A stretch of DNA of 24,949 nt from a virus: IMG/VR virus record IMGVR_UViG_3300045135_000293, positions 1 through 24,949 of that record. One strand, written 5' to 3'. Positions within the stretch are counted from its first letter, which is position 1. Every line of letters starts with the position of its first letter. Positions 3,200 to 4,342 of the stretch are shown here, piece by piece. The notes below the pieces were generated by a model that did not search any database, had not been told where the DNA came from, and saw only the letters and a program-made list of their open reading frames with translations. The translations under genes were made by a program, and so were the position numbers.

Positions 3200-3536
3200 T
3201 TTTTACAAATCACACGCTTGGAAGTCAGACCCTGACGATTTATTTATGGAAAACGTCCTAGCATTCCGCAAGATCGTGCAGCTCTACGATTACGGCACAG
3301 AGTTTTACTTCCCCAACTACCGCGAAGCACCGTGGCATGTGCAAGCAGAAATTGGCGGTGAAAAGATCAACTTCTGGCCTCACAAGATGAAAGCGCATGT
3401 GGAGTACCGCAAAGGCGGGGCAGTAGAGGGCCGCTACGCAATCATTGACCTCATCAACGAGCAGATCGCAAAAGACGCAGACGGTGCATCCAATCCCGAC
3501 TATTGGAGTGATGACGAGTTTGATCTGTTTGAATGA
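3189..3536 (+). CDS. Hypothetical protein (115 aa)
   Basis: The start is the ATG at 3189 (MEYNFYKSHAW) after a GGGAGG Shine-Dalgarno sequence, inside the last codons of the nuclease gene. A longer frame from 3042 lies entirely within the nuclease and is not supported. The protein is rich in aromatic and acidic residues, ends DDEFDLFE and has no membrane segment. I do not recognise the family. The acidic Phe-containing C-terminus resembles the tail by which SSB-type proteins recruit partners, but that is only a resemblance. The stop overlaps the methyltransferase start. Confidence 0.75.
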   Translation: MEYNFYKSHAWKSDPDDLFMENVLAFRKIVQLYDYGTEFYFPNYREAPWHVQAEIGGEKINFWPHKMKAHVEYRKGGAVEGRYAIIDLINEQIAKDADGASNPDYWSDDEFDLFE

Positions 3537-4342
3537 TGCGGCATGTGGACATATGCAGCGGCATCGGCGGTTTTGCGCTGGGCTTTGAATGGGCAGAGTT
3601 AAGCAGCCCAGTTCTTTTCTGCGACATAGAGCCGTGGAGCCGCAAGATTTTAGCAAAGCATTGGCCTGATGTGCCGATTGCAGAAGATGTAAAGGAATTA
3701 GCAAATGACCCAGATGGACTTGTTCCAGACTGCGACATCATTACAGCAGGATACCCCTGCCAGCCCTTTTCACTTGCAGGGGAGCGCAGAGGCAGTGAAG
3801 ATGACAGACATATCTGGCCTTACATTTTCACCATTGTTCAAAGAAAAAGACCCTCTTGGTGCGTTTTCGAGAATGTTTATGGGCATGTCTCTATGGGCCT
3901 CGACGAGGTGCTATCTGACTTGGAAAGGCAAGGCTACGCCGCAAGGCCGTTCATTGTTCCAGCTTGTGCCGCTGACGCGCCTCACAGACGAGACAGAGTT
4001 TGGATCGTCGCCAGAAATGTGGCCGACAGCAACAGCGCGGGACTACAAGGGCGGCAGAACGCCAGAGACACTAGCCAAAGCAGGGCGCAACGAGACAAAC
4101 AGTCTGCCAGACGCAGTGAACGCCCAGATGGGCAAAACTGGCTCCCTGAACCCGCAGTGGGTCGAGTGGCTAATGGGATACCCAGAAGGGTGGACAGACT
4201 TAGAGGATTAGGAAATGCTATCGTGCCGCAGATCGCTATGCGCATAGGCCAGACGATCAAAGCGGTGCATGACATCCCAGCGCAGGGTCACGCGCACAAC
4301 AACGTCAACAAAGAAAAGGAAGACGACAATGCTAAAAATTGA
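3533..4342 (+). CDS. C5 cytosine-specific DNA methyltransferase (269 aa)
   Basis: The ordered motifs of C5 methyltransferases are present. Motif I is DICSGIGGFALGF for S-adenosylmethionine binding. Motif IV is GYPCQPFSLAG with nucleophile Cys76. Motif VI is FENV at 113-115. Motif VIII is HRRDRVWIVA around 151-160. The C-terminal motifs are VGRVANGIPRRVDRL and GLGNAIVPQ (about 209-233). The enzyme methylates cytosine at C5 in an unknown recognition sequence, probably to protect phage DNA from restriction. The region between motifs VIII and IX is short and low in hydrophobic residues, so the target-recognition domain is small. A second protein is encoded in another frame inside this gene (3705-4211). 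The start could be either of two adjacent ATGs. Confidence 0.9.
   Translation: MMRHVDICSGIGGFALGFEWAELSSPVLFCDIEPWSRKILAKHWPDVPIAEDVKELANDPDGLVPDCDIITAGYPCQPFSLAGERRGSEDDRHIWPYIFTIVQRKRPSWCVFENVYGHVSMGLDEVLSDLERQGYAARPFIVPACAADAPHRRDRVWIVARNVADSNSAGLQGRQNARDTSQSRAQRDKQSARRSERPDGQNWLPEPAVGRVANGIPRRVDRLRGLGNAIVPQIAMRIGQTIKAVHDIPAQGHAHNNVNKEKEDDNAKN
3705..4211 (+). CDS. Overlapping-frame methyltransferase-associated protein (168 aa)
   Basis: This frame lies wholly inside the cytosine methyltransferase gene, shifted by one base, yet it looks like a real protein. An AAAGGA Shine-Dalgarno sequence lies about eight bases upstream of MTQMDLFQT. The body carries segments that I recall from stand-alone phage proteins found with methyltransferases: LTWKGKATPQGRSLFQLVP, MWPTATARDYKGG and LNPQWVEWLMGYPEGWTDL. 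The last resembles the LMGFPxGWT segment of C5 methyltransferase C-terminal domains. Because the methyltransferase frame is also intact with all its motifs, both frames seem to be under selection. The role is unknown; target recognition or an accessory subunit is a guess. The family call rests on memory, not a search. Confidence 0.6.
   Translation: MTQMDLFQTATSLQQDTPASPFHLQGSAEAVKMTDISGLTFSPLFKEKDPLGAFSRMFMGMSLWASTRCYLTWKGKATPQGRSLFQLVPLTRLTDETEFGSSPEMWPTATARDYKGGRTPETLAKAGRNETNSLPDAVNAQMGKTGSLNPQWVEWLMGYPEGWTDLED

Follow-up and report, generated by a model that had tools for sequence, protein, structure and literature searches.

M.EcoHK31I has the target YGGCCR and M.AquI the target CYCGRG, and the small subunit of M.EcoHK31I is reported, in work of Lee et al. 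from 1995, to be encoded inside the gene of the large subunit in a different reading frame. Bacillus phages of the SPR, phi3T and rho11 type have multispecific m5C methyltransferases with serial target-recognising domains. Enzymes of this kind also figure in titles cited in PMC8936443. M.EcoHK31I consists of two polypeptides, a large one with motifs I–VIII and X and a small one in which motif IX stands alone, and its predicted TRD was placed in the large subunit (PMC3404938). M.AquI is also a two-subunit m5C methyltransferase, with motifs I–VIII in its large subunit (PMC3404938).

We propose that a locus in the 24,949-base virus record analysed here (the window), which carries phage genes for a Holliday junction resolvase, primase/helicase, terminase, tail and endolysin, very probably encodes a DNA (cytosine-5) methyltransferase with two subunits, of the same type as M.EcoHK31I, that would act as a heterodimer, the gene for the small subunit (beta) being nested in that for the large one (alpha) (Table 1). 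Alpha matched PF00145 in Pfam (E 4e-35) and PHROG 363 (E 7e-70), and has motifs I, IV (PCQ), VI (ENV) and VIII of the C5-cytosine methyltransferases in one chain. Every segment that the first-pass annotation had quoted for the methyltransferase frame was found, including VGRVANGIPRRVDRL and GLGNAIVPQ, as was the 168-aa +1 frame that it had reported to have its own Shine–Dalgarno (SD) sequence and the segments LTWKGKATP, WPTATARDYKGG and LNPQWVEWLMGYPEGWTDL. This second frame, beta, matched PHROG 1008 (E 1e-28), and a TAG at 3699–3701 lies in frame with it before its ATG. In a profile search of the PDB, alpha aligned to residues 12–176 of M.HhaI with a second, weak match to 293–319, so that alpha lacks a recognition domain and motif IX; its predicted model matched M.HhaI with a Z of 23, the low-confidence linker excepted.

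Table 1. Alpha and beta features in the window.
Feature	Position	Strand	Remarks
Alpha subunit ORF	3533..4342	+	269 aa; C5-cytosine methyltransferase with motifs I–VIII and X
Alpha CSGIGGF	3554–3574	+	located in sequence
SD-like AAAGGA for beta, inside alpha	3691..3696	+	8 nt 5' of beta ATG
Beta subunit ORF	3705..4211	+	168 aa; +1 relative to alpha, wholly nested in alpha; open and homologous in related loci
Alpha PCQPFS	3755–3772	+	located in sequence
Alpha ENV	3869–3877	+	located in sequence
Beta conserved hairpin segment LTWKGKATPQGRSLFQLVPL	3915..3974	+	aa 71–90; two predicted strands, pLDDT about 86–89; W73 and L87 conserved
Alpha HRRDR	3983–3997	+	located in sequence
Beta PTPxA-type cassette	4020..4145	+	aa 106–147; single copy here; proposed target-recognition module; type common to 7 loci, slots 1/1, 2/2, 3/3
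Alpha linker	4028..4177	+	mostly disordered (predicted, low pLDDT); overlies DNA of beta cassette and motif IX; alpha selection weak here
Beta motif-IX-like segment LNPQWVEWLMGYPEGWTD	4146..4199	+	counterpart directly precedes motif X in single-chain relatives
Alpha VGRVANGIPRRVDRL	4157–4201	+	located in sequence
Alpha motif X, GLGNAIVPQ	4205..4231	+	located in sequence

The motifs are divided between the two chains in the relatives as well. With motif IX assigned by position and pattern, a motif-IX-like pattern was present in 202 of 212 betas and in 1 of 212 alphas, while motif X was present in 195/212 alphas and 2/212 betas; alpha does not have the arrangement of a monomeric enzyme, in which IX shares a chain with I–VIII. 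This is the architecture described for M.EcoHK31I, and the frame layout reported for that enzyme is matched by the betas here, which lie in +1 wholly within alpha in 201 of the 212 loci with mapped alpha/beta coordinates. The window locus differs from M.EcoHK31I in being phage-borne, in having no restriction enzyme among the genes inspected, in that its beta relatives carry up to five apparently exchangeable cassettes, and in its recognition region, which selection would place in beta, whereas the predicted TRD of M.EcoHK31I is in the large subunit. In the corresponding part of the overlap, selection was strong on beta and weak on alpha, and alpha is there predicted to be disordered. The large subunit of M.AquI resembles alpha in its motifs I–VIII, but its small subunit holds IX and X together; in the window, X belongs to alpha, which encloses the whole of beta. 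A few actinophage loci (L440, L445 and L450) share the M.AquI division of motifs, both IX and X falling in their +1 ORF.

In some further actinophage relatives, one chain comprises motifs I–VIII, PTPxA modules, a PEWMMGWP segment (IX) and GNGVVPQ (X). With hhalign, alpha aligned onto single-chain positions 1–187 (probability 100) and beta onto positions 278–399 (probability 97.3, E 1.7e-11). These single-chain relatives match both PHROG 363 ('DNA methyltransferase') and PHROG 1008, which suggests that the two, although listed as separate families, belong to a single enzyme. When the PDB was searched with a profile of the IX–X end of the single chain, no known methyltransferase was matched. As judged from sequence, the natural reading of alpha, beta, the single chains and the L440-type loci would be one enzyme with its parts in one or two frames. 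Of the earlier claim that two recognisable protein families overlap here, the overlap is real, but the two supposed families seem to be portions of a single enzyme.

An alternative raised in the first-pass annotation was that the second family is largely a database echo of the methyltransferase frame. Some echo exists, as +1 translations of alpha with permuted synonymous codons still scored 84 +/- 13 bits with the beta profile; the window beta, however, scored 243 bits, and similarity among homologous betas was 7–16 SD over the permuted null. The beta frame stayed open in 0.11% of the permutation trials, about 0.001 per locus (0/300 for the window locus), whereas 65 non-redundant loci (<90% DNA identity to each other) had no stop in it over the overlap region; the remaining forward frame had 786 stops, and the three reverse frames had 621, 245 and 346. 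A first set comprised 80 viral loci retrieved with a beta query and 80 retrieved with only alpha; in 159 of 159 loci there was a homologous partner ORF, offset by +1 in the same way (a few at contig ends show part only), and a nested homologous beta was found in all loci picked by the alpha frame alone. Selection ratios, as simple counting estimates that leave out codons with several changes, were obtained from independent pairs at 90–99% (29 pairs), 80–90% (33) and 70–80% identity (61). In the overlap, beta dN/dS was 0.10–0.13 (NN/NS) and 0.19–0.26 (SN/SS), the alpha ratios were 0.11–0.20 (NN/SN) and 0.22–0.34 (NS/SS), and alpha-synonymous, beta-altering change occurred at 0.16–0.24 of the rate outside the overlap. 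Both frames are coding and under purifying selection, and along the overlap this selection moves from alpha in the catalytic part to beta in the recognition/IX part. Up to motif VIII, alpha NS/SS was 0.06, 0.08 and 0.12 and beta SN/SS was 0.20, 0.23 and 0.35 for pairs at 90–99, 80–90 and 70–80% identity; past motif VIII the values for the same classes were 0.81 (CI 0.44–2.1), 0.51 and 0.35 for alpha and 0.17, 0.14 and 0.17 for beta. Codon permutation, stop counts and the strong selection on the beta frame alongside that on alpha rule out the echo, to which we assign practically no probability. The proposal of long-lived overprinting with selection in both frames is thereby borne out: neither stops in the alternative frame of relatives nor a lack of constraint beyond that of the methyltransferase frame, the two results named beforehand as counting against it, was observed.

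It had also been suggested that an accessory protein overprints the methyltransferase. On this reading beta would be an independent factor, such as a regulator or an anti-restriction protein, encoded across an enzyme that is complete in itself, which would fit with its separate SD and start and with an N-terminal part that has no counterpart in solved methyltransferases. We regard this as unlikely: alpha has no motif IX and a linker predicted to be disordered, beta supplies IX, and in single-chain relatives the cassette and motif IX of beta form the TRD/IX part of the continuous chain. Moreover, each beta among the best profile matches sat on an alpha. AF2, run on alignments without database-phage rows, gave a poor model of beta alone (pLDDT 66, pTM 0.28) that was well predicted only at the hairpin and C-terminal helix, as may be expected for a subunit needing its partner; no meaningful fold match to this model was found among solved structures, nor any match to beta in the PDB by sequence. 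Another possibility is that beta has no independent start and that a programmed +1 frameshift past motif VIII yields a fusion of motifs I–VIII, the recognition part and IX. Such a fusion would join the right parts in the order seen in the single-chain relatives, but it would be without motif X, which stays in alpha, and the conservation of beta over the stretch up to the end of motif VIII (SN/SS 0.20–0.35), of the beta start region and of the SD argues against it. An SD-like site was present upstream of the beta start in 128 of 163 loci (79%); such sites precede 19% of the remaining ATGs within alpha, and the share is 43% when codons are permuted. We consider the frameshift very improbable.

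In the two-subunit enzyme that we favour, alpha would be responsible for AdoMet binding and catalysis (motifs I–VIII) and would contribute the closing motif X, with a flexible linker in the place that the recognition domain and motif IX occupy in a monomeric enzyme. Beta would be translated separately from its own SD inside alpha, in +1, and would provide the conserved N-terminal hairpin region, the recognition cassette as a putative TRD, and motif IX. The two may assemble into one enzyme as in M.EcoHK31I, and this could methylate the phage genome, most likely evading host restriction. Should methylation require both subunits, a clone of alpha by itself would show no activity, and half of the enzyme would be absent from functional predictions based on alpha-only annotation.

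The architecture is already known from a single bacterial enzyme, M.EcoHK31I; its breadth and the modularity of the cassettes are the newer aspects. The centre of beta is an array of 0–5 recognised PTPxA modules of ~39 aa, with one in the window, and 332 modules from 153 loci gave 219 types, 45 of which occurred in at least two loci. The same type was found in different slots, on backbones down to about 30% identity or less, and certain types were always last and others never last. Plausibly, the cassettes are exchangeable, recombining target-recognition units; they would differ from the SPR, phi3T and rho11 type of serial domain in being ~39 aa long and in lying in a separate nested subunit. 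Serial PTPxA modules are seen at L445:2841–4112, L064:906–1817 and L044:2501–3391, and their types recur in different orders across phages; nested betas have up to five modules and their actinophage counterpart L445 has more. More tentatively, and with a little less than even confidence, we suggest that the nested split form is old and widespread in a large phage m5C methyltransferase family, with beta as a platform on which ~39-aa recognition cassettes, at most five per beta, are shuffled between phages. The other frame need then only stay open as an alpha linker, an array could equip a single phage with several specificities of methylation, and the actinophage single chains would have arisen from re-fused frames.

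At the single-chain loci L438:2342–3673, L460:2429–3601 and L468:1502–3349, the +1 ORF still resembles the N-terminal part of beta, at about 55–64 bits against permuted averages of 29–36 and maxima of 52–64. A remnant of the beta N-terminal part is likely in these loci on sequence grounds, and the +1 ORF is perhaps the leftover of a former nested beta (cf. Babsiella gp54/gp55). A midpoint-rooted tree suggests that the single-chain forms are derived, with two changes. The tree label 'AquIlike' was not used, as it rested on a loose motif-X pattern.

The nested layout is very common and ancient in phages and prophages, across many bacterial phyla. A beta-profile search, with only best matches taken, added 80 bacterial genome loci and further viral loci, and the +1 beta–alpha overlap was present in all 147 new loci among these best matches, from Bacillota, Pseudomonadota, Acidobacteriota, Bacteroidetes, Verrucomicrobia and other genomes and viruses; no standalone beta was found among them. 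In a third set of 114 loci, found with the alphas of mycobacteriophage Zerg or coliphage K1ind1 and including eight database phage loci, beta was nested in 111, the exceptions being L340, at a contig end, L329, in which alpha is disrupted, and the single-chain locus L337. It is rare for two genes that overlap on the same strand to have hundreds of relatives, single-chain forms besides, and a function that they probably share, and the locus family is suited to measuring how selection splits between the two frames and how such overlaps arise or are lost. Literature searches for overlapping phage methyltransferase genes yielded no paper directly on the subject. Genome annotation usually records one half, alpha: in RefSeq, each of the three E. 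coli prophages inspected is listed with a single 'DNA cytosine methyltransferase', and the nested beta that it carries is unannotated. Occasionally beta is annotated, as the 'g62 internal gene' of phage Lily, the 'Mte8-like protein' of K1ind1 and gp55 of Babsiella. In the E. coli ECCTRSRTH03 prophage (L464:2818–4029) the methyltransferase is annotated as two pseudogene pieces, both spanned by an open ORF with motifs I–VIII and X and a nested beta. In cyanophage Cy-LDV1 (L163:1506–1832) a hypothetical gene is annotated on the strand opposite alpha and beta and the 'methyltransferase' label sits on the 3' part of the beta frame, which is probably a misannotation. The Roseovarius chromosome OX638333.1 has at least five near-identical copies of the locus (L219–L221, L223 and L224), perhaps repeated prophages or an assembly artefact.
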